From: a virus
IMG/VR virus record: IMGVR_UViG_3300023174_000038
Coordinates: 1 to 64,000 of that record
Strand: one strand, 5' to 3'
Length of the DNA stretch: 64,000 nt
The stretch's first letter is position 1. Each line of letters opens with the position of its first letter. Both the position numbers and the translations under genes were made by a program. Positions 4,881 to 54,048 of the stretch are shown here, in pieces. A model generated the notes under the pieces. It was given only the letters and a program-made list of their open reading frames with translations, was not told the origin of the DNA and did not search any database.

Positions 4881-5875
4881 ATTTTGTACACTATGGTATC
4901 ATCGCTACTTTTAGCGTTTTTTACTATGTTCTGATTACTTTGTCGTTTGCTACTTTGAACTGTCAATACATCAATTTTGTTATATCCAAACTCAGTATGA
5001 TATTTTAATACATCATCGGCCATATCTCTATTACGAACCTTACCTACATTCCAGCAACTGACACCATTTGGATTTAGATGTTCTATACCCAATTTAATAA
5101 TCTCACGTAAGAATCCATCAGCCCAATCCTGATATGTAGGTTTAGTAGTAATTGATTGAGTTGGTTCATGTGTATATACTTCTAAATCAAAGTAAGGTGG
5201 ACTAGTCAATACTAAATCAGCTTTAGGTAATTTGTATTGTTTCATATTCAATGCATCATCACATATCAATGTGACTTTGTTTTGTATACCTAAAAAGTTT
5301 ACAATACTCATTAAATTATTATATGTTTGTGTGTTAGGTTCAAAAGCGATGTAATGTGCTCCATAACTTACTGCACCTAACATACGACCTCCCCAACCTG
5401 CACAAGGATCTAGTACTACTTCTGGCTTATATTTAATACAAGCTAGTTTCATCATTTGCGGCCTATACATTGTATTTTTAGTAAGACTACAGCAGAAGTA
5501 TATACCACGTTTTAATTCACTAAGATACGGTGTGCTATGACATTTACGATTCCATTTGAGGACTTTTTCTAAATTAGTTTGAGTCCACAAACTTCTAAAA
5601 CTTGTACCTGTACTGCTTTCAATATCATAGAAGTTAGGGCAATAGTGTTCGCTTAGTTTCATACCTAAACGTGATGTACTACTAATTGTTGTATCAGTAG
5701 TAGTCCACTTGCATAGTTGTTGCCAATCTTTTTTTAGTACATCGTCAGTGTATTGTGGTAAGAAGTTATATTGTTCTAGTTCCTTAGCCAGATTGGGAAC
5801 GGCGGCATCAAAGTCTGCGTCTGATAGATTACGTGTTGAGTAACGTACATTTAGAATATCAGCTAATGTTACCAT
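4877..5875 (-). CDS. DNA methyltransferase with TSPPY motif (probably N4-cytosine type)
   Basis: Predicted SAM-dependent DNA methyltransferase of 332 aa. The SAM-binding motif I is DPCAGWGGR (156-164) and the catalytic motif IV is TSPPY (224-228). SPPY is the form typical of N4-cytosine enzymes, though some N6-adenine enzymes have related motifs. The N-terminal 150 residues may hold target recognition. Its start overlaps by 7 nt the end of the PD-(D/E)XK-like gene immediately upstream, which is how many restriction-modification pairs are arranged. It could modify phage DNA to evade host restriction, with or without a working partner nuclease. Confidence 0.85.
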   Translation of the reverse strand: MVTLADILNVRYSTRNLSDADFDAAVPNLAKELEQYNFLPQYTDDVLKKDWQQLCKWTTTDTTISSTSRLGMKLSEHYCPNFYDIESSTGTSFRSLWTQTNLEKVLKWNRKCHSTPYLSELKRGIYFCCSLTKNTMYRPQMMKLACIKYKPEVVLDPCAGWGGRMLGAVSYGAHYIAFEPNTQTYNNLMSIVNFLGIQNKVTLICDDALNMKQYKLPKADLVLTSPPYFDLEVYTHEPTQSITTKPTYQDWADGFLREIIKLGIEHLNPNGVSCWNVGKVRNRDMADDVLKYHTEFGYNKIDVLTVQSSKRQSNQNIVKNAKSSDDTIVYKI

Positions 5876-6411
5876 TCTTCAAAACTTTTAACCCAAGGCA
5901 ATTTCAAAAAGTTTTCCCAAGCATTAGCCTTACTCCTGGTGGTATTATACATCCAATCATCATTACCGCCACCTTCTCCTCCTTGTTGCCGACTAAAAAA
6001 ATTATAAGTATCTTGTAAATGTGTTGTAAAGTCGGCTTTGGTAAACCATATTATGGTACTGTCCTCTACAGTATGAGCTACTAGTATAGCTCGTTCCCAA
6101 TCTTTCCCCACACCAAAATGATTAAAAATAAAACCGTTACTAGCATTTAATGCGCTAAATTTAATTTCAACTTTAATTTCACCCACAAATCTATCATGAC
6201 CGGGATTTTCTTTACCTCTTACGATATGCCCAAGTGAGGTCAAAATGTCTGTTAACATTGCTTCCCCGAATGCTCCTTTTGCACCCGGCTGAAGATAGGG
6301 TAATCCAGCTAATGGGGTGTTAGCCCATTTATCATTAAGTGATTTTGATATAAGACTGATTGTCTCTGGTGAAATATTAGTGTATACTGTTTCACTATTT
6401 ATTAATTTCAT
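5869..6411 (-). CDS. Putative PD-(D/E)XK restriction-endonuclease-like protein
   Basis: Protein of 180 aa from ATG 6411 (MKLINSETVY); an upstream TTG would add six residues but lacks a better ribosome site. Motifs seen are GEAML (an upstream glutamate), then GHDRF and GEIKVEIKFS, which fit the E...D...ExK layout of PD-(D/E)XK nucleases. Size fits small Type II restriction enzymes. It overlaps the SPPY methyltransferase by 7 nt and shares its transcript. The function is inferred from motif and context. Alternatives are a Vsr/Holliday-type nuclease or a non-catalytic member. The C-terminal stretch RQQGGEGGGNDDW is an unusual Gly-rich linker. Confidence 0.6.
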   Translation of the reverse strand: MKLINSETVYTNISPETISLISKSLNDKWANTPLAGLPYLQPGAKGAFGEAMLTDILTSLGHIVRGKENPGHDRFVGEIKVEIKFSALNASNGFIFNHFGVGKDWERAILVAHTVEDSTIIWFTKADFTTHLQDTYNFFSRQQGGEGGGNDDWMYNTTRSKANAWENFLKLPWVKSFEEW

Positions 6412-10654: not shown

Positions 10655-12091
10655 TTAGATGTAGGGTAATCCAATGATTTTGTCCAGCATACGTGAATAT
10701 GTTTTATCCAAACTTTCAGTAAACAAGTCAAGTTGATTTTGTACTGGCTGTTCCCACAATTTATGTTTAACAACTGTTAGCCAATTTTCTACTTGTTCTT
10801 TTTTCAATGGAGTATTTTCGTCACCTAAATTATATAACATAGGTGTATATTTTTCTATCATATAATGTATTTGTTCATCTGTATACTGGGTTTCAGGGTT
10901 TTCCAAATCTCTCCAATATGTATTTTTAAATACTTGAATTAATGCAGGTAAATGTTTAGTTATCCATTCATTGTATTTGGGATTACTATACTTTTGTAAA
11001 GGTTTAAATGTTTTACCTTCGGCTAGTTTTCTACCAATCATTTGTTCTGCACCTTTAGTAATATTCTTTTCATCTGCTGGACCTTTAGCCATTTTACTTA
11101 ATATGTCGGCTTGTGGACCTGCACCAGCTGGCTCTTGCATAGTAGAATCGTTTTGTGCTTGCCCTGTCATTTTACTAGTCATTGCAGTAATTAAATTAAG
11201 CTGATCCTCAATTTTATCTTTCATATCAGAAACTGTCTGTGCATCTTGTTGTGCACCGGCTCTTAATTGATAGGTAATGTCTTTTTCTTTTTGTACAGCC
11301 GCTAACTGTTTTTTTACATTATTCATTTCATTACCAAAATCTTTAATTTGATTTTCATAACCTTTAACTATTTCAGAATATTTTTGAATTTCTCCGGCGT
11401 GTGTTTTTTGCAGGTTACCCAATTGACCTGCTTTCTTGTTAATATATTTTACAAATCTACCTTCTTTTGCATTCAAATCGTCCTGAGTTTTTTGTAACTG
11501 GTTTTCCAATCTCTGATATAACTCATCTCCGATATTTTTTTGTTTGTTTAATGTGACTATTAAAGTATTTACTTTTGCCAAATCTTTATCGTCAATAGAA
11601 GGATTGTTGGAAATTTGTTTAATTTGTGCTTCTATATTTCTAAACTTTTCTGGATCCATTCCAGGTTTATTTTTTAATATTTCTAAATCTTTTTGCAATT
11701 TTTCTAAATCATCGGCACTTACTTTTGCTTTTTGTTGTGTTTTAGCACCGCCGGTTGTTAATGTACCACTCAGTTGTTTTAATCTAGCAACTTCACGATC
11801 CGTTTCAATAGATTGTCTTTCAAAATCTTGTAACTCTTGATCCAAATCATCCACTGCACCTCTTAAACGTTCATTCTCACGTTTTTGAGTATCAATTAAT
11901 TTATTTTGAGTTGAATCAGTTTTTTCCTGAGTAGACATTTGGTCAGCAATATACAATGTCAATGCTTGTTGGCTATCATAACCAGGATATTTATTTCTAG
12001 CTCTGTATATTAAATCTTTATCAACCGGCAAACCTCTAACAGTACCTGTATTGGTTTCACGGTCTTCATTTAATAATGATGAAATTTTCAT
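10655..12091 (-). CDS. Coiled-coil protein, probable virion or scaffold component
   Basis: A 478-aa protein. Residues about 50-300 form long charged heptad-like coiled coils (repeats of DDLDQELQDFERQ-type sequence), followed by a more compact C-terminal domain rich in Tyr and Trp. The N-terminus MKISSLLNED resembles the short M-K/R-x-x-x-F/L-I/L-x-E leader of T4 internal capsid proteins. It overlaps by 4 nt the 631-aa gene upstream, which lies next to terminase. No family recognised. It could be an internal head protein or a scaffold, but no direct motif proves this. Confidence 0.75.
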   Translation of the reverse strand: MKISSLLNEDRETNTGTVRGLPVDKDLIYRARNKYPGYDSQQALTLYIADQMSTQEKTDSTQNKLIDTQKRENERLRGAVDDLDQELQDFERQSIETDREVARLKQLSGTLTTGGAKTQQKAKVSADDLEKLQKDLEILKNKPGMDPEKFRNIEAQIKQISNNPSIDDKDLAKVNTLIVTLNKQKNIGDELYQRLENQLQKTQDDLNAKEGRFVKYINKKAGQLGNLQKTHAGEIQKYSEIVKGYENQIKDFGNEMNNVKKQLAAVQKEKDITYQLRAGAQQDAQTVSDMKDKIEDQLNLITAMTSKMTGQAQNDSTMQEPAGAGPQADILSKMAKGPADEKNITKGAEQMIGRKLAEGKTFKPLQKYSNPKYNEWITKHLPALIQVFKNTYWRDLENPETQYTDEQIHYMIEKYTPMLYNLGDENTPLKKEQVENWLTVVKHKLWEQPVQNQLDLFTESLDKTYSRMLDKIIGLPYI

Positions 12092-13983
12092 TTTTTAATT
12101 CCAGCAATGTTTAATATTCTTGCTAAGTCATCGGAACCTTCGGCTACAGTCTCATTAGTTAACGGTGTATCTAATTTCTTAACAGGAGGTTTTGGAGTAG
12201 GATAGTATGCAGATTTAGCACGTTTATCAGTACCTTTGATTTTAGGATTGTCTACTCTAGGATTTACATGTTTCCATGGGTCAAGAGCATCATTATCTTT
12301 CTCTTCACCTTCACCAACTAGATCACCAATTGTTGCTGGCTTGTTAGCTTTAGGACCTTTATTACGCCATTGTCCTGCTTCCCCTGTAGCATAGTCACCC
12401 GCAAACTCACCATCTTCTGTTACAGGTTCTTCTTTACTGCTATACTTGGCACGAATATTTTGCATTGTTTTCTCACTAGCATCTTCTTGTCCGGCTTTAC
12501 GTAGTGCATCCATACCATCTTTACCATACTTCTTGTCACCCAAGTATGCCTGCAATGCACTTTCTTCAACTTCATCTTCTTCTATGGTACTCATACGTTT
12601 TTTCAACGCTGCCATACCGGCTGGACTTGTCATATTTTTTTCATCAGCTTTGGCTAAATCTTGTTTAGTAACTTTCCAATCACCACCTGGTTGCTTGCGT
12701 TGTACAGCCGGTGTGTTGATTTTTTGGTCAGCTTGATGTGCGGCGTCTAAAGCCTCATCAACTGGTTTATCTTTAGGTTCAGGTTTTTTACCAGTTTGTG
12801 GTACGCCGGCTGATTTTTGTAATTTTTTAATTAGGTCTTCTTCACTACCACCACCTAATTTGTCAAATACTTTACTTCCGACTTTCTTAACTGTATCTAA
12901 TATACCTTCATCTAAATCTTCCTCTTCAGGAATACCAGCTGGATTAAGAGCCTGTTGACCACCGTCACCTTCTTCTAAAGCAACTTCAGTTAAACTATCA
13001 GCCCATTCACTTAACTCATTAACTTCTTTCATCTCAGCTACTTTCTTGTGTAGCTTATTCAATATTGGCATTACACTTTCAATACGTGGATCTAATGTTT
13101 CTTGTACAAACAACTCATTCAAGTTATTTTCTTCACTTTCATCTTCCATTAATGGCGGAGTATATGATTCAAAGTACGCATTGTACCCACGTGCACCACG
13201 CATCTTGCTTAACGATTCTCTTAAACTTTGATAGTGGTTAATGCCTTCATTAACTAACTGTTGTGCTGATTCGTTAAACTGATTATTACGTGTAGCACGA
13301 ACAAATGCACCCATCTTATTGTATTCTTCACATAGACCGATAATATGATTCCAACGGTCATCATGTGGCATACCGCCTTCAGCTAAATGTCGGGCATATA
13401 CCTGAGCAACTCCGGGCTTAGTTGTAGGAGCAAGAATTCTTTCACCTTGTGTGTTCTCTAAGAAGATACGGTTTACATTACGATAACGTTGTTCACCCTC
13501 TTCAATTTGACGACTATGTTCAATAACAATCTTAACTGTTGGAATATTGTCATTATAACTGGCTTTCTTACCCATTGGATAGTAACCTTCTGATATTCTT
13601 TCTTGCTTTTTCATATGTTCCCTTTTTGCCATATCATATTTTAAATGGTCTCTGTTTTTAACTTCAAAACTTAATTGATGTTGCTGTGCAAAACGCTTTA
13701 GATGATTCAATAGTTTGTACCATGAGTCATCACCACCATTATCTTCTTTTTCACTATTGGCAACATCATCACCAAAGTAAATTATCAACTTATGTAATCC
13801 ATCAATAGATGCTGTTACTGTGCCATATTCTTCCCCGTCTTTAGTAAACTTAAACTGAAAGACTTCTGCTTCTTCTGGAACTGGAATTTCCTTACCAGAA
13901 GTATCTAATAGAGTCGGGGCATACCCTCTACTACGTAATAGCTCAAATAATGAGCGGTTAATTGATTCTTGATTTTTAGCCAT
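12088..13983 (-). CDS. Large hydrophilic protein of unknown function, probable structural/internal protein
   Basis: A 631-aa protein with no signal peptide or membrane segment. The N-terminal 250 residues look globular. The remainder is low complexity and charged, with many short linear segments (EEDLDEGILDTVKKVGSKVF, EEDEVEESALQAYLG, ETVAEGSDDLARIL) of repeated acidic helix-turn type. Such disordered tails with xxE sites would suit prohead-protease processing. It is preceded by a late motif GATAAATAC only 3 nt before the ATG and lies between terminase and the coiled-coil gene. Role inferred from position only. Confidence 0.72.
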   Translation of the reverse strand: MAKNQESINRSLFELLRSRGYAPTLLDTSGKEIPVPEEAEVFQFKFTKDGEEYGTVTASIDGLHKLIIYFGDDVANSEKEDNGGDDSWYKLLNHLKRFAQQHQLSFEVKNRDHLKYDMAKREHMKKQERISEGYYPMGKKASYNDNIPTVKIVIEHSRQIEEGEQRYRNVNRIFLENTQGERILAPTTKPGVAQVYARHLAEGGMPHDDRWNHIIGLCEEYNKMGAFVRATRNNQFNESAQQLVNEGINHYQSLRESLSKMRGARGYNAYFESYTPPLMEDESEENNLNELFVQETLDPRIESVMPILNKLHKKVAEMKEVNELSEWADSLTEVALEEGDGGQQALNPAGIPEEEDLDEGILDTVKKVGSKVFDKLGGGSEEDLIKKLQKSAGVPQTGKKPEPKDKPVDEALDAAHQADQKINTPAVQRKQPGGDWKVTKQDLAKADEKNMTSPAGMAALKKRMSTIEEDEVEESALQAYLGDKKYGKDGMDALRKAGQEDASEKTMQNIRAKYSSKEEPVTEDGEFAGDYATGEAGQWRNKGPKANKPATIGDLVGEGEEKDNDALDPWKHVNPRVDNPKIKGTDKRAKSAYYPTPKPPVKKLDTPLTNETVAEGSDDLARILNIAGIKK

Positions 13984-14004: not shown

Positions 14005-15552
14005 TTAGCTTATGACCGCAAAGAAGGGTAAAGGAGCTATATACTCATCATGGTCACGTATCTGTGTCTCTAAATTCACATGATAATCACTTAAATGCTG
14101 TAACATACGTGTTACTAATAAGCTAGCCATAATCAAATCGTCGGTATCACCTATTTTAGCAGCATAACTACCACCATGTGCTACAAATGCTTTTAGTTCA
14201 CTTATAAGACTACGACTATTTACAGTCATTTTCTTGCTCTCAACCAATGTTTTGAACTTAGCACAACTTGCTAGTTTACTTTTATTAGTTGTGTTAAATC
14301 CTCTACGTCCTTTGCCTGCTTCACTAATAAAGATGCCCGGGATATTGCTTTCGCCGTATTCGTTTAATGATATGATAGCGGCTTCCCCTATACCATTACA
14401 TTCTATACTGTAATAGATGTTATTGGGTTCATTTGTACATTCTGCTATGTATTTGCTTATTTGTGCTAAGAGTTTAATCTGACTAGGGATATCTGTTTTA
14501 TTATGTTTCCATTCACCAACTTGGGTAGTAGTGTTTGCTTCAAAAATTTGTATTGCTGACGGATCACCGCCTGTACCAAGACTTGGATCTAATCCTATAC
14601 AATAGATATTACCTTTCTTTGGCTTTTCATACCACCGAACTTGTCCTATACGACTAACAGGTTCTATACCTTCCATAGCTATCAATGTGTTAGGATTAAT
14701 CAATGTCTCATCGGCAATAATAAATTCGCACCCAATTTCTCGGTTGAAACGATCCTCGCCGAGCTGTGCTTTCATTTCGTCAGCCCACTTTTGGTCTCGT
14801 CCTGGTTGCTCACTCCAATGCGCTCTATATGCTCTAAATCCGTTAACACCAATCTCAGTGGTATTGCCAAAATCATCTTCAGTCTTGTTAGCACCTTTCC
14901 AAATATAAGCAAATTGATCCTCATCACTATTTGGTGTGCTTGTGATAATAGCTTTACCACCAGTACTTAGTGTTGGTGTAATAGCTGTCCAGAATTCTTT
15001 AGCGATACTTGGGCGAACGAACGCAAACTCATCCAAGTATAATAGAGTAATAGACATACCACGACCTGTATTTTCAGTTGTTGTAGCTGAAACTATACGA
15101 GATCCATTCTCAAAGTCTAATGACCCTTTATTGTATGTTGTTACACCTGCTTTAATGTAATCAGGACAGTTTTCATATGCATATCGTATCCGTTGCATAA
15201 TCTCCTGTGCACCTGTATATTTGTGTGCCGCAACTAAGATAGTAGAGTCCGGAACAAACATTGCATACCAAAGTAGGTAACCGGCTGCACTTGTTGATTT
15301 ACCTGATTGTCGTGGCATCAAACTAATTGAAAATCTATAGTTATGATAGGTTTCAATTAATCGTGTTTGATAAGCCCAAGGGTGATAGACCATACTACCT
15401 TTAGTAGGATGCTGTATTATAAAAAAGTTATCCATGAAGTATAGATAACCTGTAACAGGATCACAACATTTGATAAAATCCTGTAGTTCTTTATCAGTTT
15501 TGAAAACTGTTTTAGTATAAGGATTTTTTACTAGTGAAGGGGCATTACTCAT
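14005..15552 (-). CDS. terL: Terminase large subunit (gp17/TerL)
   Basis: A 515-aa DNA-packaging motor. The ATPase domain has Walker A MPRQSGKST (79-87) and Walker B LLYLDEF (170-176) followed by a coupling-type motif ITSTPN. The nuclease domain carries GLDPSLGTGGDPS near 322 and a late DTDDLIMASLL motif, the acidic residues expected for an RNase-H-like fold. Length is shorter than T4 gp17 (610) but normal for related myoviruses. It cuts concatemeric DNA and pumps it into the prohead. The ATG follows a TATAAATAC late motif by 5 nt with no Shine-Dalgarno, which suggests a leaderless transcript. Confidence 0.96.
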   Translation of the reverse strand: MSNAPSLVKNPYTKTVFKTDKELQDFIKCCDPVTGYLYFMDNFFIIQHPTKGSMVYHPWAYQTRLIETYHNYRFSISLMPRQSGKSTSAAGYLLWYAMFVPDSTILVAAHKYTGAQEIMQRIRYAYENCPDYIKAGVTTYNKGSLDFENGSRIVSATTTENTGRGMSITLLYLDEFAFVRPSIAKEFWTAITPTLSTGGKAIITSTPNSDEDQFAYIWKGANKTEDDFGNTTEIGVNGFRAYRAHWSEQPGRDQKWADEMKAQLGEDRFNREIGCEFIIADETLINPNTLIAMEGIEPVSRIGQVRWYEKPKKGNIYCIGLDPSLGTGGDPSAIQIFEANTTTQVGEWKHNKTDIPSQIKLLAQISKYIAECTNEPNNIYYSIECNGIGEAAIISLNEYGESNIPGIFISEAGKGRRGFNTTNKSKLASCAKFKTLVESKKMTVNSRSLISELKAFVAHGGSYAAKIGDTDDLIMASLLVTRMLQHLSDYHVNLETQIRDHDEYIAPLPFFAVIS

Positions 15553-15615: not shown

Positions 15616-16332
15616 TTATTTGATATCTAAAGGTCTTTGTTTAGTAGCAACAAGACAATAAAACTTCTCATTCATTGTAGTAAATGAACTAGGATTATTG
15701 TTATCTATAGCAACAGACTGCTCTGTTGGTACATTAATTTCAAATTCAAAATTATCAAATTGATTGATAACAAATCCACAACGATCCAATAGTGCGGCTA
15801 ATTGCTGTTCTCCAAAAATACTATAATGATTCAAATTCCATTCATGTTTACGCTCACTATCGGGAGCAGGGACTTCAATATATAATTTACCAAATTGCTT
15901 AAGAACACGATTATATTCCATTAAACTGAATATAGGATATGGACTATGCTCTAATGCTTGACGTAAAAAGATGAAGTCTACACTTTCGTCATAATATCCA
16001 TCTTTTTGTGGTAAAAAACTTAAATCATATTTTTTAATTGTATGACCTTTATCTTCACAAATTTTAATATCACCTGGACTTAATGTAACCCCAGTAAGAT
16101 CGGTGTACCCGCGTTCTTTCATTTCATCCAAGAAATAACCAGGACCACAACCTAAATCAAGAATTTTTGCATCTTTTTTTATTTCAAGGGGGTCAATATA
16201 TTTTTCAACAACAGATTTGGTAAGTGCTGAATGCATTTGGCTATCACCCTCATCATATATATGAGCTGTGTATAGCCATTCGTTGTAAAATTTAAGCTTA
16301 ACTAAGTCTAGTGTATTATTAATATCAATCAT
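15616..16332 (-). CDS. Class I SAM-dependent methyltransferase
   Basis: A 238-aa protein with the Rossmann-fold SAM motif AKILDLGCGPGYFL (motif at 59-65), an acidic loop and a motif-IV-like DFIFLRQALEHSP typical of Methyltransf_11/23 small-molecule or sugar methyltransferases. The C-terminal half (EVPAPDSERKHEWNLNHYS) resembles enzymes acting on glycans or polyketide-like sugars. The substrate is unknown; sugar genes 3-5 kb away make a glycan substrate plausible. It is the last gene of its unit, with a clear terminator. It has a Shine-Dalgarno (AGGGA). Confidence 0.85.
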   Translation of the reverse strand: MIDINNTLDLVKLKFYNEWLYTAHIYDEGDSQMHSALTKSVVEKYIDPLEIKKDAKILDLGCGPGYFLDEMKERGYTDLTGVTLSPGDIKICEDKGHTIKKYDLSFLPQKDGYYDESVDFIFLRQALEHSPYPIFSLMEYNRVLKQFGKLYIEVPAPDSERKHEWNLNHYSIFGEQQLAALLDRCGFVINQFDNFEFEINVPTEQSVAIDNNNPSSFTTMNEKFYCLVATKQRPLDIK

Positions 16333-16384: not shown

Positions 16385-16762
16385 TTATTTTCTTTTATAG
16401 CCTTTAAAAGCCTTGTGCGGACTTACTTTATTAGTATCTTCTGGTTCCATACTTCTATGGTCACGTACTAGTGTAGTAGCATCGCTAGGAGATACTGTAT
16501 TAAACGCTTGTTTCATCATTGTATGCTCTGCTTCTGTATATGGGTATGCCATATTATTTTTACCAGCAAAACTCTCATGATCCATATCTAATGATTTGGT
16601 ACTTTTGCCGTCAGCCATTGCAGCTGCCTTCATTATTTGATTTAAATGATATATTCTATCAGTACCATCATCACGAAATTTATAGGCGCCTTGTGTAGCG
16701 GATGCATGATGAGAATGCATCTTACCGCTCTTACCTTCAGTTACAAATTCAATCGCTCTCAT
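16385..16762 (-). CDS. Phage protein with capsid-targeting-like N-terminus and FKGYKRK tail (A)
   Basis: A 125-aa protein starting MRAIEFVTEG and ending VSPHKAFKGYKRK. The N-terminal pattern resembles the T4 internal-protein leader MKTYQEFIAEA, which targets proteins into the prohead and is cut after a Glu by the gp21 protease. The central region is rich in Met, His and Ser (GKMHSHHASATQG, MAYPYTEAEHTMMKQAF). The next gene upstream shares both the N-terminal and C-terminal motifs but not the middle. It overlaps that gene by 4 nt. A virion-internal role is inferred, not demonstrated. Confidence 0.75.
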   Translation of the reverse strand: MRAIEFVTEGKSGKMHSHHASATQGAYKFRDDGTDRIYHLNQIMKAAAMADGKSTKSLDMDHESFAGKNNMAYPYTEAEHTMMKQAFNTVSPSDATTLVRDHRSMEPEDTNKVSPHKAFKGYKRK

Positions 16763-17154
16763 TTTCTTTTATATCCTTTAAAGGGATTTATTGGACTAGA
16801 TTTAACAACATCAACTGCTTCTTCACTCTTATTAGTGCTGATTAATTTTTTACCACCGACTACACCTGTTTCACGCATAGCATAGTCAATATCTTTATCA
16901 ATATCTCCATCCATATATGATGAAACAATCATATTCTCTCCCCATGGAGTTTCTTTTTCAAAGTTATAAGGTGGAATACTATCTTGTTCTCTGTCTATTT
17001 GACCACGAGCTCCAGCCATTGCCACACCAAACCGATATTGTTTATAAAAATCACTATTAGGTAATCCAGGAATAATGTATGTTCCTGGCAAGGCTCTAGA
17101 CACATCAACTGACAATGCCGCTCTTTGCTCTGTAATAAATTCTTTTGCTCGCAT
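16759..17154 (-). CDS. Phage protein with capsid-targeting-like N-terminus and FKGYKRK tail (B)
   Basis: A 131-aa protein starting MRAKEFITEQ and ending SSPINPFKGYKRK. Both ends match the neighbouring 125-aa protein, while the core (AALSVDVSRALPGTYIIPG, ETPWGENMIVSSYMDGDID) is unrelated. This suggests short addressing or processing signals fitted to different cargo. Start and stop codons overlap those of its neighbours by 1-4 nt. The function of the core is unknown. Confidence 0.75.
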   Translation of the reverse strand: MRAKEFITEQRAALSVDVSRALPGTYIIPGLPNSDFYKQYRFGVAMAGARGQIDREQDSIPPYNFEKETPWGENMIVSSYMDGDIDKDIDYAMRETGVVGGKKLISTNKSEEAVDVVKSSPINPFKGYKRK

Positions 17155-18032
17155 TAGCTTTCCGTTGTTAGTATTAAATTATCTTCAGTTCCCATTAGAT
17201 AATTATTAGCATATCCGTCTAATGCAATCTCAGCACCCTGTATATCAACTGGTATAGGATATGTCACAAATGCTGATATAAAATGTTCTATACCTATATC
17301 TGCTAAAGGATTAATTAAAATTCGTACATTACCATTGGCAACATCCATGTCATATCTACAAATAGCATTACCCTCAAACAACGTTGAATGTCCACTAAAT
17401 CTTACACCAGCAAGATTATTAGTAATACTTGCAGTAAGAGTAATATCTTGCATGTCAGGTGTACCACCGTCACTTGAACGAATTTGAAAATCACCTTGAT
17501 AAAAACGTACTATAGGAACTTCAAATATAACTTGATTTGCAGCTGGACCCAATGTGTACGCAGTAGCAGTGGTCGTAGTAGTAAGAAATAGATTACTAAA
17601 GTTATTGTTAATCTTATAGAAAGCTGTTCTTAATGGATCACCGTTACCGTCGTTAGGACTTTCACCAATATTAATGTATTCTTGGTTACCGTACGGACCA
17701 AATGTTAATGAATTAGTATCAACTACGTCACCTAACGTAAGTGTAGTAGGCCCTGCTGGTTTTGTAACTCTTTGTTTTTGTCTAATTAGTACCGGATTAT
17801 TTGCCCTACTATCAAATCTATTAGTAATATAAACATTACCAATGTTAAGATTGTTGGTATTACCCGTATTAGATTGAGTTGTAGGATTGATTACTTCAAC
17901 TACTGTAGGTGAATTTGTATCGGTGGTTGGAAAAGAAAACAAATTATTAGCTACATTAGCAAAAGCCGTACTTAATGGATCTGCGTTACCATCGTTTGGT
18001 TGACTACCTGTATTAATAAATTCTTGTGACAT
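17154..18032 (-). CDS. Tail or fibre structural protein with duplicated INxGxxPNDG motif
   Basis: A 292-aa protein. I chose ATG 18032 (MSQEFINTGSQPNDG) over the longer frame because a GATAAATAC late motif and AGG sit upstream of it. Two copies of a module, INTGSQPNDGNADPLSTAF at the start and INIGESPNDGNGDPLRTAF near residue 130, are seen in many T4-like tail and fibre proteins. The rest is beta-rich with many Thr, Asn and Val. Likely a virion surface or tail component. It abuts the FKGYKRK protein B at a single shared base. Confidence 0.75.
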   Translation of the reverse strand: MSQEFINTGSQPNDGNADPLSTAFANVANNLFSFPTTDTNSPTVVEVINPTTQSNTGNTNNLNIGNVYITNRFDSRANNPVLIRQKQRVTKPAGPTTLTLGDVVDTNSLTFGPYGNQEYINIGESPNDGNGDPLRTAFYKINNNFSNLFLTTTTTATAYTLGPAANQVIFEVPIVRFYQGDFQIRSSDGGTPDMQDITLTASITNNLAGVRFSGHSTLFEGNAICRYDMDVANGNVRILINPLADIGIEHFISAFVTYPIPVDIQGAEIALDGYANNYLMGTEDNLILTTES

Positions 18033-18052
18033 GTAAAATCCTAGACCTATAT

Positions 18053-18061
18053 AGTATTTAT
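18053..18061 (-). promoter_or_regulatory. Late-type promoter GATAAATAC
   Basis: The motif lies 21 nt upstream of ATG 18032 with a short leader containing AGG, closer to the classic T4 late layout than the abutting copies elsewhere in the window. Confidence 0.55.
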
Positions 18062-18321
18062 CAAAAGCCGAACCAATTCTTCTTTGGGGCTTCAATAACT
18101 ATAGGGGTTTTACTACGTTGAATCTCTTGTAATGCTCTAATTGCTTCCATTTTAACTTGGTTGTCTGAACTCTTTGTCATTTCAATCAATACTGAAATCC
18201 TTGCGGCTTCACTCATAGTGGCGTCTCTACTTATGGATTTTTGTGCTTCTAAATATAACTCAAAGTCATTATTGGTGGCACAGCCGGCTAACAATACACT
18301 CAATAATATCAAATACTTCAT
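18061..18321 (-). CDS. Small lipoprotein
   Basis: An 86-aa protein with a signal peptide ending in the lipobox LLAGC (MKYLILLSVLLAGCATNN), so Cys would be lipidated and the protein anchored to a membrane. The mature part is charged and helical, ending in KKNWFGF. It lies 9 nt after the o-spanin-like gene. It may belong to the lysis cassette or act in superinfection exclusion. No homologue recognised. Confidence 0.78.
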   Translation of the reverse strand: MKYLILLSVLLAGCATNNDFELYLEAQKSISRDATMSEAARISVLIEMTKSSDNQVKMEAIRALQEIQRSKTPIVIEAPKKNWFGF

Positions 18322-27985: not shown

Positions 27986-28891
27986 TTAAAAGCTATGAGA
28001 TAAACCAATACCAACTTGTTTAACATCATTTGTTTTACCACCAGCATCAACATTGCGATAAGCAACTAATACATTGGTACGCTTACTGAAAGCATAATTA
28101 ACACCTACGTTATATGCTTTAACTTCTCCTGCGGCTAAACCAGTTTTAGTAGCATAGCTACCTTTAACACTAACTTCATTAGTTACCGGAGCTGTTACAC
28201 CATAAAAATGACCTTTAGTTTTAACTAGACCTGCTTTATCATCACTTTGAATTGTAGACAATTCAAAACCAGCTAGTTTTCCACTAGCAGTTACTACATT
28301 GGTATAATCTGTACCAGATTCAAAACGTGCAACTGCGGCTGCAACAGGACCTAATTTTCCACCAATACTCCATGATGTTGCTTCTAACGTAGCAGGTGCT
28401 GTGTACATACTACGGTCATACGTAGCAAATACAGGACCAAAATTTGCGGCTAAGTAAGCACCATCACCAATACGCTTGTCACGTACATTAACTACATCAA
28501 CCGAAACGGATGAATAAAGCGCACCGCCAAATGGATCAGCGTTCTTCATAGTAATGTATTCACTGTGTTCTTTACGACCTAAATCAATACTACCAAATTT
28601 ATTAGAAAGACCAATTGTACTTTGACGATCACCTAATTGTGTTGTAGCCCCAGCTTTTGGATCATCGGCTACTACAGAAGTTTCAACAACTACTCTAGCT
28701 GTTAATCCATGTCCTAATTTTTCTTCAGCTTTGATGCCAAAACGACTTGAATCATTAACAAGAGAGTTAATTTTTACAGTACCTGTTTTAGTGCTATCAG
28801 CAAATTCACTGATTTTACCATATACTGATACTTGTGCTGTTGCAACCATTGTTGTTGCAGCCAATAATGTCGCTAATGCGATTTTTTTCAT
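27986..28891 (-). CDS. Outer-membrane general porin (Burkholderiales type)
   Basis: A 301-aa precursor with a Sec signal peptide (MKKIALATLLAATTMVATAQ) and mature start VSVYGKI, as in Gram-negative general porins. The SRFGIK, GSIDLGRKEHSEY and YNVGVNYAFSKRT segments are classic of the Burkholderia/Neisseria-type porin family. It ends HSF, the C-terminal Phe needed for outer-membrane assembly by BAM. Length is slightly short for a 16-strand barrel (340-380 is usual), so some loops are trimmed. It has a late promoter TATAAATA and a strong Shine-Dalgarno AAGGA. It probably adds or changes outer-membrane permeability, or hides receptors. Confidence 0.88.
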   Translation of the reverse strand: MKKIALATLLAATTMVATAQVSVYGKISEFADSTKTGTVKINSLVNDSSRFGIKAEEKLGHGLTARVVVETSVVADDPKAGATTQLGDRQSTIGLSNKFGSIDLGRKEHSEYITMKNADPFGGALYSSVSVDVVNVRDKRIGDGAYLAANFGPVFATYDRSMYTAPATLEATSWSIGGKLGPVAAAVARFESGTDYTNVVTASGKLAGFELSTIQSDDKAGLVKTKGHFYGVTAPVTNEVSVKGSYATKTGLAAGEVKAYNVGVNYAFSKRTNVLVAYRNVDAGGKTNDVKQVGIGLSHSF

Positions 28892-28913
28892 AAAATTTCC
28901 TTTTAAAAATAAA

Positions 28914-28927
28914 CCTGATTAATCAGG
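28914..28927 (-). promoter_or_regulatory. 14-bp palindrome in the porin leader
   Basis: CCTGATTAATCAGG followed on the minus strand by TTTATTTTT. It is placed between the late promoter and the porin ribosome site, so it might attenuate, stabilise the mRNA or bind a protein dimer. Confidence 0.5.
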
Positions 28928-28936
28928 CTAGACTAA

Positions 28937-28944
28937 TATTTATA
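28937..28944 (-). promoter_or_regulatory. T4-type late promoter for the porin gene
   Basis: Perfect TATAAATA on the minus strand, 46 nt upstream of the porin ATG. Confidence 0.6.
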
Positions 28945-28975
28945 GTAATTTTTTCTACCCATATAAAATAGTTGT

Positions 28976-29668
28976 TTACGTAATAACGTCTGCTTTAACA
29001 TGAAAAATAGCTCTTTTTACCAAACTATCTATACTATTAACTAAGGGAATGCCGTTTTTTTCTACTTCTCTAACGGCTAATGGTAATTCTGTACAACCTA
29101 ATACTACTGCACTTGCTCCACGACTAATCAAACTGTCTACTACAGGCATTAACATATTATGTGATACAACCATATCCCCTGCCTTAATTAAATCTATAGC
29201 AGGTTGTACTATGTTGTTCATTTCTTCTTGACTGGGGACAATACAATCCCAATCAATTAAACGATTTTGATATAAGCCTAATTCAATTGTAGCTTGTGTT
29301 CCCATTATACCTATTGTACCCGTAACATTTATATCACGTAATACATCAGCTACACTATCTACAATATGTAAAATAGGAACTTTAAATTTAACTAATTCAT
29401 CATACCAGTAATGCGCTGTATTACAAGGGATAACAATCGTAGTACATCCAACTGCTTTCAATACTTGCATACCTTGTAGTAAATATGGTAGTGGTCTATC
29501 ATCACCATTACGTATACTTGTGCTACGATCAGGTACACGTGGCTCATTCCATAATACAAATGGAATATGTTCTTGGTCACAAGTTGCGGGGGTTTGTTGT
29601 ATAAGTCGTGTTATATATTCCGCACTTGCTGCCGGACCCATACCGCCTAGTATACCTAGACGTTTCAT
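28976..29668 (-). CDS. Aspartate/glutamate racemase family enzyme
   Basis: A 230-aa cofactor-independent amino-acid racemase. Two catalytic cysteines are in place: Cys82 in IPCNTAH and Cys192 in LGCTELPL. The start MKRLGILGGMGPAASAEY is diagnostic for the Asp/Glu racemase superfamily (YgeA/RacX-like; the substrate can be Asp, Glu or broader). It interconverts L- and D-amino acids. It overlaps the membrane-anchored gene as ATGA and sits between a transporter and a porin, so it probably acts on imported amino acids. Alternatively it could make D-Asp/D-Glu for cell-wall interference. Confidence 0.9.
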   Translation of the reverse strand: MKRLGILGGMGPAASAEYITRLIQQTPATCDQEHIPFVLWNEPRVPDRSTSIRNGDDRPLPYLLQGMQVLKAVGCTTIVIPCNTAHYWYDELVKFKVPILHIVDSVADVLRDINVTGTIGIMGTQATIELGLYQNRLIDWDCIVPSQEEMNNIVQPAIDLIKAGDMVVSHNMLMPVVDSLISRGASAVVLGCTELPLAVREVEKNGIPLVNSIDSLVKRAIFHVKADVIT

Positions 29669-30270
29669 TTTTTGTTAAACAATAAACTAGATGCAATAAC
29701 CATAGCAGTTTGTGCGGCTTCTACATCTGTGGGTTGTTCTTTCCAACCTACACTAATCTGCCCAATGAAGACTCCGGGCTCTGCTGGTACACTGATACGA
29801 CACATATAGTTTACTCCGTATTCTTTATATACAAATCCAATAAGACTTTGTGGCTTTGTATATGGGCTACAGGGAATCTTACCTGACATCAATCCAATAA
29901 CATCGTTATTATTGTCATAGTTTTTACTAAACAACCCAACTTCTAATCCGTCATTTCTTTTATCTCTACCACCATTGCGTGTAGCTAAGTAAACAACTTT
30001 TCGTGTGTTAAGCAATGTATTGACTTCAAGAAAGGCAACCATTTCTACTTCAGTATTTTTTAATAAGAAATTATATGCGTCATCATACTTACCGTTCATC
30101 TTTGGTAATGCCTGTTGAGCACGGTAACTTGCTAAGAAGGCATCTTTTTCTGTATAAACTATCCAACCACCAAATCCTAGTACACAGAGAAACACAACGG
30201 TGAATAGGCGAAATGGACTTTCGCCTATATAGGTTAATAAACTAAAGAGAAAATCTTTAAGTTTGTCCAC
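29665..30270 (-). CDS. Membrane-anchored protein with extracytoplasmic sensor-like domain
   Basis: A 201-aa protein with one N-terminal membrane segment (about 20-37, LFTVVFLCVLGFGGWIVY) and a periplasmic domain of about 160 residues. The ending VNYMCRISVPAEPGVFIGQI, then VGWKE, has a GAF-like look (three-strand sheet core and helix), but this is uncertain. It overlaps the transporter by 14 nt and the racemase by 4 nt, so its function is tied to that block. It could be an accessory or regulator of the transporter. Not recognised as any named family. Confidence 0.75.
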   Translation of the reverse strand: MDKLKDFLFSLLTYIGESPFRLFTVVFLCVLGFGGWIVYTEKDAFLASYRAQQALPKMNGKYDDAYNFLLKNTEVEMVAFLEVNTLLNTRKVVYLATRNGGRDKRNDGLEVGLFSKNYDNNNDVIGLMSGKIPCSPYTKPQSLIGFVYKEYGVNYMCRISVPAEPGVFIGQISVGWKEQPTDVEAAQTAMVIASSLLFNKK

Positions 30271-31534
30271 CAGTAGCTACCTCTTTGTCGCAGACAAATG
30301 CTGTTACTGCAACATTGCCGTGTACGTGACTTGCTGTACGAATCATATCCATTAATGGATCAACGGCAATTAACAATACTAACACAGCTTCACTTGGTAG
30401 TTTTAATAAGTCACACACAACTGCTACTGTAGCAACTGTAAGAATACCTGTTGTACCTGCACTTGCTAATCCTGCCAAAATACTACCAAATAACACAACT
30501 GCTAGTCCCGTTAAGCCTAATGGAGCATCATAGATATTAGCAATGAATACTGTAGCAATAGCATAGTAAACAATACTACCAATACGATTGACTGTAAAAC
30601 TTAGTGGAACTGTTAGTTCAACACCACCTTTATCAAAGTGTAGTCTGTGTAATGATTCTTGTGCGTATGGAATACAAGCTAAACTACTACGTGAACTAAT
30701 AGCAACAATCAATGTTTCTTTAGTTTCACGGATAACAGTCATTAGACTTAATCCACTACGATACCAGATCATAGCAGTACCTGCGGCTACAACTAATAGT
30801 CCACCAACAAACTGTTGGAATACAAAGTCAAACATTGTTAAGAATATACCTACCCCTACCTTACCAACTTGGGCAGCAATCATTGCTAATAGAGCGATTG
30901 GTAAAAAGTAATTTAAGAATTTAAAGATACTGATACTTGCTTGTTGAATGCTTTTAAGTACTTCAACTAGCATCTTTTGACCTTCTGTTTTAAGATGTCC
31001 AAGAGCAACACCAAATATTAAACAGAAGATAACAATCTTCAAACTTTCACCATTGTTTAACGTGTTGAAAATGTTTTCTGGAATAAACTTCTCTGCCATC
31101 TTACCTGCACTTACTGCCGGTGCTACTGGCATTGGTTCTTTAAGAGTAATGTTTAAATCAGTACCACTGTCTTTGTTATTAACCAATACACCAAGTTGTG
31201 TTTTCTTTTCAGGAGTCATTTCAGTTCCTGTGACTAAAACTGTACCTACGCCAATTATTGCGGCTAAGAACATGCTACCAACAAAGCCTACAATGATTTT
31301 GCGTATTAATTGTTGGCTGCCTTCTTTTTGTAGTAAGCCAATGATACCAACTAGTATAGTTGCTAACAAGAATGGTAGTACAACAACTTTAAGTAAACTT
31401 ATATAGATACTACCAATACTATCAAAGTTAATGCTGAACTCGGGTGCGTAAACACCACTCAATATACCCACGATAATAGAACCAAGTATGGTCCACGGGC
31501 TTGTTAAAAACGTTTTTAAATGTGCGGTTGTCAT
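30257..31534 (-). CDS. SLC1/DAACS-family amino-acid or dicarboxylate transporter (divergent)
   Basis: A 425-aa integral membrane protein with the DAACS (GltP/DctA) plan: eight helices and two re-entrant hairpins. HP1 tip SSRSSLACIP corresponds to RSSSGTLP of GltPh. TM7 has NRIGS in place of NMDGT. TM8 reads DMIRTASHVHGN, keeping the substrate-binding Asp and Arg but replacing the sodium-site residues N401 and D405 by His and Asn. This suggests altered or absent sodium coupling. It lies between a periplasmic binding protein (9 nt away) and a membrane-anchored protein. Substrate probably an acidic amino acid. Confidence 0.85.
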   Translation of the reverse strand: MTTAHLKTFLTSPWTILGSIIVGILSGVYAPEFSINFDSIGSIYISLLKVVVLPFLLATILVGIIGLLQKEGSQQLIRKIIVGFVGSMFLAAIIGVGTVLVTGTEMTPEKKTQLGVLVNNKDSGTDLNITLKEPMPVAPAVSAGKMAEKFIPENIFNTLNNGESLKIVIFCLIFGVALGHLKTEGQKMLVEVLKSIQQASISIFKFLNYFLPIALLAMIAAQVGKVGVGIFLTMFDFVFQQFVGGLLVVAAGTAMIWYRSGLSLMTVIRETKETLIVAISSRSSLACIPYAQESLHRLHFDKGGVELTVPLSFTVNRIGSIVYYAIATVFIANIYDAPLGLTGLAVVLFGSILAGLASAGTTGILTVATVAVVCDLLKLPSEAVLVLLIAVDPLMDMIRTASHVHGNVAVTAFVCDKEVATGGQT

Positions 31535-43542: not shown

Positions 43543-45096
43543 TTATTTGTTATAATTATTTAATATATCAGATAGCCATGGTATATAATTTTCTAATTTA
43601 TGACCTCTAATGTCATCTAACCTACGGGTATCGTCAGCTAGCTTTGGTAACAGATGGCTATTATCTTTAGCAAACATATAGTTGATTAAACCACTATAGC
43701 TATGCCTAAATATATTACCCATTTCTAGTCCATATTTTTCATCTATTTCTTTGTAAAAAAATTCATATGCTTCTCGTATTTGATTTTTTACATTAACGGG
43801 TAGTACTTGTATACTCATGGGAGACGGGCCCTCTAGTACGTGATAGCTAGGCGTTTTTCTAATTCTTTTATAATTTTTTTCTATTAACCATTTAGAAATT
43901 TCTAAAAAATGATATACATTGAATATACTTATAGTAGTAGATATTGTACCATAAATAGATTTAGTTGGATTATTACCTAACACATCTAAATTTTGTTCTA
44001 GTGCATCCCAAGTACTTGGATATCTTAGATAGTATGCCAAATCCTCAATTGCATCTATACTGCATCCTATTCCTACGGATCTGAACTCTTCCCATAAGTT
44101 ATATAGCTTATTTGGTATAGCAAACATATTTGAATTGTAATCCAAATGAACACGATTGCTATGACCCATATCTATAATTTTTTGTAATAATTTAAAATGT
44201 ATTTTATTAATTGTAGGTTCGCCGCCGGTAAAATAATATCGGTCAATATAGGGAATTAGTTTTTCAATTTGATTCCAGAATTCATCCGATTCATACCATT
44301 CAAAATCCGAAGAATCAATGGTATAATTATTATTTTTTTTGATTACATTATACGTTTTTCCCCCATAAAAAGACATAGGAGCTGAGGAAGGCTTTTCTCC
44401 CTCGTATGACATGAAAACAAAATCGTCATACCACAGACTGCTATCGGTCGGGCCGCAATATCTACATTTTAAATTGCATAAATTTCCAAAACGAATATCA
44501 ATATATTTTATTGGAAACTTTTCTATATCTATACTTCCATCATTAGCAGTGTTATCAATGAATCCTGTATGTCCGTATGTATTAATACTGTGTAATCTTT
44601 TACTAGATAAACCGGTGTCTTCTTCTTTCCAACATAAATTACATGACGGATGTTTTTCTCCGCGCAACATACTTGCACGTAATTCTTTAAATACTGTGTT
44701 ATTTCGTGATTGATTTATATCAGTATTTTTAACGTTTAACATTTCTCCGTTCTCTATTAGTTTACCGTACGGGTAGTATATCTGTTGACAACAAATTCTT
44801 AAATCTCCATTTTGTTGTATGCCAGTAGAGACCCATGGTATTGGGCAAAACGTTGAATTTTTTGGAAGGTCCTGCATTTGAGGATTTATTTGATTCAGTC
44901 TTGTTTTTGCTAGCTCAATTGAAGCTTCTGAGCAATGAGGATTTTTCATACCTGCTACTATAACTTCTGATTCAACATCATGTGTTATCATAGCTGTTAT
45001 TAATTCAGGAAAATCTGTAATTGTAATAAGTTCAACTCGTTCATTAGAATCAAAACAGTTGTGAAGTTTATTAAACCAATATTCACTGGTATTCAT
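43543..45096 (-). CDS. Radical SAM enzyme with N-terminal twitch/SPASM-like domain (1)
   Basis: A 517-aa protein. Residues 1-75 are a helical N-terminal segment (ELITAMITHDVESEVIVAGM) similar in plan to that of the 774-aa enzyme. A Cys-rich twitch/SPASM-like domain follows (FCPIPWVSTGIQQNGDLRIC at 83-102, CNLCW near 152). The radical SAM core starts with CNLKCRYC (207-214), the [4Fe-4S] ligand motif. The N-terminal twitch order matches the family NCBI names N-terminal twitch rSAM. It cleaves SAM to a 5'-deoxyadenosyl radical; the substrate is unknown. It overlaps the next gene by 4 nt. Confidence 0.88.
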   Translation of the reverse strand: MNTSEYWFNKLHNCFDSNERVELITITDFPELITAMITHDVESEVIVAGMKNPHCSEASIELAKTRLNQINPQMQDLPKNSTFCPIPWVSTGIQQNGDLRICCQQIYYPYGKLIENGEMLNVKNTDINQSRNNTVFKELRASMLRGEKHPSCNLCWKEEDTGLSSKRLHSINTYGHTGFIDNTANDGSIDIEKFPIKYIDIRFGNLCNLKCRYCGPTDSSLWYDDFVFMSYEGEKPSSAPMSFYGGKTYNVIKKNNNYTIDSSDFEWYESDEFWNQIEKLIPYIDRYYFTGGEPTINKIHFKLLQKIIDMGHSNRVHLDYNSNMFAIPNKLYNLWEEFRSVGIGCSIDAIEDLAYYLRYPSTWDALEQNLDVLGNNPTKSIYGTISTTISIFNVYHFLEISKWLIEKNYKRIRKTPSYHVLEGPSPMSIQVLPVNVKNQIREAYEFFYKEIDEKYGLEMGNIFRHSYSGLINYMFAKDNSHLLPKLADDTRRLDDIRGHKLENYIPWLSDILNNYNK

Positions 45097-46403
45097 AGCC
45101 GTTCTCCTGTATGATGTTGTAACTCAGGAAAGGTTTTTTTGAAATCAGTATTTCTTTCTTTATCTAGTTTAATCAAATAACCCATATACCAGTTAACATC
45201 AAAGTCAACAGTTTCTTCTAATGCATTTTTAATTATACTTAACCTGTTATCAAATACATTTTTACAATCTTCCTGTAATTTTTGTGAAGATTTTAATGGT
45301 AATAATGTATTGTAATACCATTGCTCATACTCGGAAATTTTAATACGTAAATGTTCTTTCCATTCTTTACTAGCGGACCTTATTGAAAAGTACTCAGGAT
45401 ATAGTAAAACAATATTATGATAATCAGATTCCCAAATACTAGTGTTGTAAAACGTATGCGGGAAGAGGTCATTTACTAAAAAATATTCTAGTATATCTTT
45501 TATCCGATGTATATTCATCAGACTCCAGGTTGGAGTAATTACCCAATGACGATTACTTCCTGTTAAATTATCTTTTAATAGTTTAATATTTTTCAATATT
45601 TTATTTGCATCAGCTGGATAGCGTATGTAAAATAATCTATCCACATCAACTTCATCTAAACTTACTAATACACGTAATTTTTCCATGTGTTTCCAGTAAT
45701 CTAAAACGTCTGTTGATTTATAAGTCATTGTGGTTAAGTTAGTACTGTACACAAATTCTATTTCTCCTAATCTGTTTGATTCTTTAATATATTCTAGTAT
45801 TTCATAATGTTCAGGATGAAGTAAAGGTTCTCCACCAGCAAAATATATTTCTTCAACATTGTTTACTTGCGATTTTATAGTTTCAATGAAGCTTTCTTTA
45901 TGATTTTTACTGTTATTAAATTGATCCTCAGTATAATTAGGATCAATTGCCTTCATAATAGGTACCCATGAACTACTATACGTAGGATGGCACACTGTAC
46001 ATGCTAGATTACATAAATTGTTAAATCTGAAATCCCATTTCAAAAATTTCATACTACTCATTGTTCCATCTATAGCAGTATTATCTTCAATCAGTTCTTC
46101 ATAAAAATCTTTAAACCTATCATTAAAGCTTCGGCGTATTGTTGACGTACTTCCCCATTCTTCTTCTTTGTAGCATCTTGTACAATGTTTTGATTTTGTA
46201 TCGTTTAATATATCTCGTCTTAATTCTTTATAATTTTCATTGTTCCAAATATCTTGTATATTTTCTTTATACAAATTCCCCATACTGCCACCTAAACTGA
46301 TACAGCAGGGAAGTATATCTCCTGTTGGAACATTATGTATATGCATAAACGGAGCCATGCAAAATACTTTGCTTTCTTTAATGTGAAATGTTTTTTTAGT
46401 CAT
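45093..46403 (-). CDS. Radical SAM enzyme with N-terminal twitch/SPASM-like domain (2)
   Basis: A 436-aa protein from ATG 46403 (MTKKTFHIKESKVFCMAPFM); an earlier start would lie deep in the upstream gene. Twitch-type cysteines FCMAPF and ILPCC lie near 15-34, with GNLYKENIQDIWNNENYKEL, the classic SPASM linker, and CTRCYKEEEW at 74-83. The radical SAM core motif is CNLACTVC (131-138), with GGEP following (YFAGGEPLLH). It overlaps both neighbours by 4-8 nt. Substrate unknown; probably works in series with the four other rSAM enzymes. Confidence 0.88.
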   Translation of the reverse strand: MTKKTFHIKESKVFCMAPFMHIHNVPTGDILPCCISLGGSMGNLYKENIQDIWNNENYKELRRDILNDTKSKHCTRCYKEEEWGSTSTIRRSFNDRFKDFYEELIEDNTAIDGTMSSMKFLKWDFRFNNLCNLACTVCHPTYSSSWVPIMKAIDPNYTEDQFNNSKNHKESFIETIKSQVNNVEEIYFAGGEPLLHPEHYEILEYIKESNRLGEIEFVYSTNLTTMTYKSTDVLDYWKHMEKLRVLVSLDEVDVDRLFYIRYPADANKILKNIKLLKDNLTGSNRHWVITPTWSLMNIHRIKDILEYFLVNDLFPHTFYNTSIWESDYHNIVLLYPEYFSIRSASKEWKEHLRIKISEYEQWYYNTLLPLKSSQKLQEDCKNVFDNRLSIIKNALEETVDFDVNWYMGYLIKLDKERNTDFKKTFPELQHHTGERL

Positions 46404-48720: not shown

Positions 48721-49973
48721 TATGTTTGATTTTTAAATAATTCAAGTTGTTGCTCAGTATACTGAACTACTTCTCCTGGATTTTGCATCCCTCGTATTGG
48801 AACAAGACTTACAACACCTTTAACTCTTCCATTTGCACCCGGTCTGTTTAATAAATCTAAATTTAATATTTTCTCTTTTAATTTTAATGCTCTATCTATA
48901 TATTTAGGAGGAGCCATTAATTTTACTTCTAACCAATGGTCATCGTCATGTTCATCAAAATGTTCGCATATTACTTTAATATTTTTAACAAATCTATCTT
49001 CATCATTGTATTCTGTTAAGCCGTCAAAATGAGCACTTAATAATATGCTATTCATATATTTTGCTAGTTCCCCCCAGTATTTATGATCTCTGGTTCCATT
49101 ACTAGTTACCATAGTCCATTGGTTTTTACCTTTAAGATACTTAATAAAATCTAAAAAGTTAGGATGTAACGTAGGCTCACCGCCGCCAAAGTTCCATCTG
49201 ATGGTTTTATTATGGGCCCATTCTTCAATAATCTTATCAGCAGTGCTTATCAATAAGTCATAATCTTTATGGGTATCAGTTTTATTATGCACTCCTGGCC
49301 AGCAATAGGAACAATCATAATTACATTTTCTGCTAAGATCCCATAAAATTTGATAGGGCATAGAATAATTCAATTCAACTGCAACTGGATCACTTATATT
49401 ATCAACATAATCATTTTCAGTACGGTCTCGCCCTTGCCATCCTTCATTGTTAACAGCAAGCGTTGTCCTATGCATTTTAGTTTTGACTTTGCTTAATACA
49501 ACATCAGCACCGCAGCTACATGAATTCCACGGACATACAAACCACTCTTTAGACAAAGAAAAACTTTCATTTATATTGCCCAAAAACCCAGGTATATTAT
49601 TTTTATTTTCTTCTGTTACTGGGATTATTTTTTTATATGCCTTGCCATTCTTTTTAAATTCTGATTCTAATTTTAAAAATTCTTCGCCTGTATGCCACCA
49701 CTCAGATGGAATATTTTTTCCAAATTTATCAATCTTAGAGAATAACAATTCTTTCCAATTGTCATGATTAAAACGGTCTATGAATGAACTAGCTGTATTA
49801 CATACCCAAATGTTGCCGTCAAAGTCAATATATAAATTTTGAACTCCGGCGCTACATTTCCAATTTTGCCAATAATTATATCTGTTTGCAATTGCTTCGT
49901 CAACCGAAACTCTTATAAATTTTCCATCATCATCATATATTCTTAATTGCTTGTTGTTGTTAATATTATCCAT
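48720..49973 (-). CDS. Radical SAM enzyme with twitch-like cysteines before the core (3)
   Basis: A 417-aa protein. Near the N-terminus NWKCSAGVQNLYIDFDGNIW (residues 38-57) and later FLGNINESF, CPWN and CSCGAD (130-156) match the C-terminal auxiliary domain of the neighbouring 319-aa enzyme. The radical SAM core follows with CNYDCSYC (217-224), and GGGEPTLHP is the SAM-binding motif. The auxiliary domain is thus before the core here and after it in the neighbour. It overlaps the 774-aa gene at a single base. Substrate unknown. Confidence 0.88.
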   Translation of the reverse strand: MDNINNNKQLRIYDDDGKFIRVSVDEAIANRYNYWQNWKCSAGVQNLYIDFDGNIWVCNTASSFIDRFNHDNWKELLFSKIDKFGKNIPSEWWHTGEEFLKLESEFKKNGKAYKKIIPVTEENKNNIPGFLGNINESFSLSKEWFVCPWNSCSCGADVVLSKVKTKMHRTTLAVNNEGWQGRDRTENDYVDNISDPVAVELNYSMPYQILWDLSRKCNYDCSYCWPGVHNKTDTHKDYDLLISTADKIIEEWAHNKTIRWNFGGGEPTLHPNFLDFIKYLKGKNQWTMVTSNGTRDHKYWGELAKYMNSILLSAHFDGLTEYNDEDRFVKNIKVICEHFDEHDDDHWLEVKLMAPPKYIDRALKLKEKILNLDLLNRPGANGRVKGVVSLVPIRGMQNPGEVVQYTEQQLELFKNQT

Positions 49974-49977
49974 TATG

Positions 49978-53746: not shown

Positions 53747-54048
53747 CGTACAATCTCAATCTCTTTCCATTCTTTATACCAGTCAAGCATAACTTTACTA
53801 TATGTTTCTTTTAATACGTTTAGCAATTGTGCGCGGTTGACCTGTACAGGGTTATTAAAGTTATCAATTAATACAACAAAATTATCATCTAATGCATTTA
53901 AAAATGCAATAAGTTCAGGACTAGCTTTCCATAGTCCACCTTGTTCGGCAATAATAAATTTGCCATCGTATTTGTCTTTTAGTTGCGCTTTTGCGCTATT
54001 GTGATTGAAGCGGGCTTTAGCCTCGCTAATTAAGGTTTTGGTATCCAT
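53743..54048 (-). CDS. Conserved T4-type small phage protein, 101 aa
   Basis: A 101-aa protein (MDTKTLISEAKARFNHNSAK). SEAKARFNHNSAKAQLKDKY and WKASPELIAFLNALDDNFVV are patterns I recognise from many T4-like aquatic myoviruses, but its function is unknown. It overlaps the glycosyltransferase gene by 4 nt. An AAATAC late-type motif and an AGGAG ribosome site lie upstream. Confidence 0.75.
   Translation of the reverse strand: MDTKTLISEAKARFNHNSAKAQLKDKYDGKFIIAEQGGLWKASPELIAFLNALDDNFVVLIDNFNNPVQVNRAQLLNVLKETYSKVMLDWYKEWKEIEIVR

Follow-up and report, generated by a model that had tools for sequence, protein, structure and literature searches.

We found that two adjacent genes of an uncultured virus encode diverged paralogues sharing a conserved start and a conserved end. 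They are probably tandem copies of a small protein that a T4-related jumbo phage carries inside its head and ejects, and their nine-residue start (the N-tag) would be a capsid targeting sequence (CTS) cut after Glu9. The window analyzed here is the opening 64 kb of a virus record 348,701 bases long; the whole record was examined by pattern search, and one 19-kb stretch of it was read. Both genes lie on the minus strand. Gene A (16385..16762) is an open reading frame of 125 aa and an A-type member of the tagged domain family, and gene B (16759..17154), an open reading frame of 131 aa, is its B-type paralogue. They overlap by four bases, ATGA, in which the stop of B runs into the start of A. As had been predicted, both genes carry the same two end motifs, MRAxEF[IV]TE at the start and SPxxxFKGYKRK at the end: A opens with MRAIEFVTE (16736..16762, minus strand) and closes with SPHKAFKGYKRK, while B opens with MRAKEFITE (17128..17154, minus strand) and closes with SPINPFKGYKRK. 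Each N-tag is a predicted propeptide. The predicted cut in A falls after Glu9 and before Gly; in B, Gln follows, a poorer fit to the S/A/G rule. The conserved ends (the C-tags) are SMEPEDTNKVSPHKAFKGYKRK in A (16388..16453, minus strand), with near-invariant S.E, S, and FKGY columns in the A-type family, and SEEAVDVVKSSPINPFKGYKRK in B (16762..16827, minus strand).

Exact matches to FKGYKRK followed by a stop were confined to genes A and B in the 348,701-base record, and profile searches of that record found no further copies of the A/B domain. The strict N-motif occurred in A, B, and a third gene at 287463 (208 aa), with no control matches. A looser form, M[RK]xxE[FILV][ILV]xE, was found at five places, compared with none for reversed-pattern controls; its two extra starts lie near 261-262 kb, the second inside the reading frame of the first gene. 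N-tagged proteins with a DUF6321-like end were seen in L255, L257, and the same record at 261485 (L601), and the L255/L257 copy contains repeated QGVAEG, possibly multiple protease sites.

The middles of the two proteins had been described as unrelated, and this part of the original prediction was overturned. When deep profiles of the cores only were compared, with both ends removed, 89 columns aligned at 98.1% probability (E 1.1e-13), whereas the same profiles reached 0.1% (E about 0.4) against reversed sequence; the first, shallow A/B alignments had given E values of 0.0018 to 0.08. Intermediate paralogues matched both A and B. Since the cores align without either end, A and B are diverged paralogues, and unrelated middles are ruled out for this pair by the core-only comparison and the intermediates. 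Predicted structure models of modest confidence (pLDDT 73 and 63) have the same succession of main elements, from two helices through a strand, a helix, a strand, and another helix to a short final strand. Fold searches with the B model returned nothing significant and no known fold.

The HMM family comprised 223 distinct A-type sequences, and relatives of B were found on at least 155 stretches of uncultured virus contigs. Almost all of 80 loci examined in relatives had A and B side by side and carrying both tags, and some contigs held three or four tandem copies of the tagged domain. No match to A, B, or two diverged relatives was obtained by tblastn among 50,697 records of cultured phages, and a strict tag search of PA5oct and Phosso, the nearest cultured phages, revealed no convincing gene copy. 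No Pfam or PHROGs family matched A or B, and our literature search found neither a description of the family nor virion proteomics of any relative. Certain long proteins (L597, L535, L581, L600, and others) also end in an A/B domain complete with its C-tag; some of them have a nucleotidyltransferase-like region, and the domain usually follows a protease-like site.

By sequence comparison the N-tag is a module, despite the homologous cores of A and B. In relatives it opens about 30 clusters of otherwise unrelated proteins, a count that gives no unbiased rate, as part of these loci were found via the tag itself. The tagged domains include ADP-ribosyltransferases (L254, L406, L430), acetyltransferases of the GNAT type (L465, L373), a LysM-transglycosylase (L465), a weakly kinase-like protein (L256), and many unknowns. 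L432 and L465 each contain a run of five unrelated N-tagged genes (acetyltransferases, LysM-transglycosylase, and others), which are candidate islands of packaged effectors. In the records of ten relatives, a degenerate tag pattern matched 27 times, versus twice for the reversed pattern. The tag also ends sharply: in the A-type alignment (222 sequences), position 9 is Glu with an entropy of 0, and position 10 has an entropy of 2.9 bits. Among the 469 family members, position 9 is Glu in 465 and position 7 is I, L, or V in nearly all, although the membership filter partly selects for conservation at these two positions; the residues at positions 4 and 8 are variable. Gly, Ser, or Ala follows Glu9 in 155 of 222 A-type sequences, including A of the window. 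Most B-type sequences have no small residue there, and Gln, as in B of the window, was found in 77 of 207. At the predicted site, B reads I-T-E and A reads V-T-E, a conservative departure from L/I.

The resemblance to the T4 CTS noted in the original prediction is well supported by comparison. T4 IpII, whose record marks a leader of 10 residues, starts with MKTYQEFIAE. Published work on T4 (PMC9026906) reports that 10 residues are enough for head entry, that by mutation positions 4 and 7 of the tag matter for targeting and positions 8 and 10 for processing, and that L/I-x-E precedes the gp21 cut. When the tags were aligned on E-F-I, T4 positions 4, 7, 8, and 10 corresponded to positions 3, 6, 7, and 9 here; A3, F6, I7, and E9 are all conserved, the first differing in identity (Tyr in T4, Ala here). 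The tag occupies residues 1-9 in A, B, and their relatives, and a T4-type CTS lies within the first 10-19 residues of its precursor. The L/I-x-E-type site, the conserved key positions, the presence on unrelated proteins, and a gp21-type protease, all features of a T4-type CTS, were found together. The protease is a gp21-like Peptidase S77 (PF03420, 97 bits) at 98606-99037 of the record, which also encodes a T4 gp23-like capsid protein. Likely substrates allow a guess at this protease: a scaffold-like gene between these two contains 14 [LIV]xE[SAG] sites versus 2.15 expected (p <0.001), and the 631-aa gene beside the terminase contains 11 versus 2.3 expected; no significant excess was seen in eleven further proteins, among them the terminase, the portal, and the capsid protein. 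The capsid protein reads LLAE|SSAG at about residue 43. Where the A/B domain is fused to longer proteins, a protease-like site stands at the domain start in 21 of 29 copies, some of them closely related, versus 4.2 expected. Because the N-tag is modular, ends sharply at Glu9, and occurs alongside a gp21-like protease and site enrichment, it fits a T4-type CTS that would be removed after Glu9.

T4 IPI, IPII, and IPIII likewise carry a short N-terminal tag with E-F-I-x-E spacing on otherwise unrelated proteins, cut after Glu by a gp21-type protease as is predicted here. The present tag, MRAxEFIxE, differs in being one residue shorter, and A and B differ from the T4 internal proteins in having a second, C-terminal conserved tag and in forming a homologous family absent from cultured phages. 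The N-tagged ADP-ribosyltransferases of the relatives have a precedent in T4 Alt, a packaged ADP-ribosyltransferase (PMC9026906). Alt is processed by gp21 at both ends, showing that a packaged protein can undergo processing at its N and C termini alike; in contrast, the C-tag here has a conserved S.E and no L/IxE site, and A and B fall outside recognized enzyme families. The giant phages of the phiKZ type (201phi2-1, SPN3US) are jumbo phages, too, and have numerous head proteins that are cut after Glu, but they belong to another lineage, have another protease motif, and differ from the present case, in which a nine-residue tag is common to many proteins.

Both ends kept around an unrelated middle, as had been proposed for A and B, were found literally in a single case, L105. 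The third of four tandem tagged genes there (5651-6004) consists of MRAKEFVNE, an 86-residue GC-rich core, and SSEELADTNKGSALKPLKGYKR. This core is the bacterial transporter suffix domain NF033684 (NCBIfam, 59 bits), which stands between phage tags in L105 and is a free-standing gene in the bacterium. Its DNA is identical at 261 of 267 positions (98%) to a contig of a Betaproteobacterium MAG, the match extending from about the codon after Glu9 to the start of the C-tag. With a GC content of 64%, the core stands apart from the C-tag (30%) and from the contig that carries the tagged gene (34%). From this case one may tentatively read the tags as a cargo cassette, in which whatever protein stands between the N-tag of nine residues and the C-tag of roughly 22 would be loaded into the phage head and delivered, host genes being captured in this way; we consider this possible but doubtful. 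As a predicted membrane protein, the L105 core would be an odd cargo for a capsid. The swap might instead be an assembly chimera or a dead recombinant, uninformative on the function of the tags, and the 98% identity to the MAG contig, together with a MAG sample code that suggests a related sample, points in this direction. A chimera is nevertheless unlikely, because each of the two junctions preserves the reading frame and coincides exactly with a tag border; moreover, a second assembly is 99.88% identical to L105 over 6.5 kb and contains the core-to-C-tag junction.

The surroundings of the pair suggest another reading, namely that the pair consists of ordinary proteins associated with the tail or baseplate, whose conserved start is an uncut docking peptide for a tail component. 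The immediate upstream neighbor (17154..18095, minus strand; true start probably an internal ATG) has segments like the N termini of T4 gp9/gp10 and resembles a tail fiber connector (PHROG 677/8859, PF07880). Such a gene lies upstream of the pair in 67 of 68 relatives, and the order tail gene, B, A is fixed; with this gene next to A and B, a tail role may be considered. We judge it unlikely: the N-tag is also borne by enzymes typical of injected head cargo in these genomes, it ends in a prohead-protease-like site, and the fused domain copies have a protease-like site at the same boundary. Downstream of the pair, a methyltransferase-like gene (15616..16332, minus strand) is kept in 62 of 63 relatives, and the terminase large subunit (14005..15552, minus strand), which marks the packaging module and the kinship of the phage, lies within 4.5 kb in 24 of 29. 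The terminases of PA5oct and Phosso, both jumbo phages, share 48-50% identity with that of the window.

Several other genes of the window were recorded. The 631-aa protein adjoining the terminase (12088-13983, minus strand) is perhaps a protease-cut core or head protein, and the PA5oct genes in a comparable place are annotated as structural, with mass-spectrometry notes. Near the terminase, a coiled-coil-like protein of 478 aa (10655-12091, minus strand) has a CTS-like start, MKISSLLNE|D, ending in LxE; a 101-aa protein (53743-54048, minus strand) starts similarly with MDTKTLISE|A, ending in IxE. Genes apparently porin-like, racemase-like, and dicarboxylate-transporter-like were seen at 27986-31534 (minus strand), and several consecutive genes with putative radical-SAM-like cysteine motifs at 43543-50937 (minus strand).

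The C-tag is a new motif: no counterpart was recognized from T4, in keeping with the earlier remark that it has no known equivalent. It is always C-terminal and basic, and with L105 as the single exception it belongs to the A/B domain. Within the A/B clade, S.E, a further S after it, and FKGY do not vary; other clades have KPKRNKYGV or RPKDHRKK endings in the same place. The types of C-tail agreed within a contig in 189 of 208 pairs (shuffled mean 169, maximum 179), an agreement that follows clade. A strictly phage-specific C-tag is not claimed, because of this clade effect and because several contigs mix FKGY and DHRKK tails. The end motifs might be thought mere parts of one conserved domain in paralogues, with no sorting role, as the homology of A and B spans the entire proteins and the C-tag occurs almost only with this domain. 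As an account of both ends this is improbable, since L105 keeps them around an unrelated core; for the N-tag, found on about 30 unrelated clusters, it is largely refuted, and the C-tag accompanies this domain in all cases but one. Of the proposal that both motifs may mark proteins for packaging and processing in the head, the N-terminal half is well backed by comparative evidence, while the C-terminal half is weakly supported: the C-tag might conceivably be a matching packaging tag.

An origin of the shared ends at the DNA level, either as ribosome-binding or promoter-like features (AAAGGATATAAAAG precedes the ATG of A) or through recent gene conversion, would agree with the nearly identical coding of the two C-tags in the window and with the overlap of the B stop and the A start, but it is highly improbable and was ruled out by codon variation. 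Synonymous codons vary freely in both tags among the 469 family members, and in FKGY all four Gly codons and both codons of Phe, Lys, and Tyr are used; selection therefore acts on the peptide.

Under the favored reading, in which A and B are internal head proteins, a small ejected protein of the head would have been duplicated in tandem and the copies would have diverged. The first nine residues would take each precursor into the prohead core, where the gp21-like protease of the phage would remove them after Glu9, so that the mature core and the C-tag would be left inside the head. These phages would use the N-tag as a general packaging tag for a wide range of unrelated proteins. The C-tag (SxE..DT..SP..FKGYKRK here) would be a basic tail binding something common in the head, for which DNA, the core, or the portal is our guess.

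Should the cassette reading be true, L105 would represent the capture of a host gene in progress. In any case it offers a natural experiment on the tag boundaries, and a second, C-terminal tag is on offer. The N-tag would provide a sequence handle for the packaged and injected proteins of uncultured giant phages, and it indicates a large pool of candidate host-takeover proteins.
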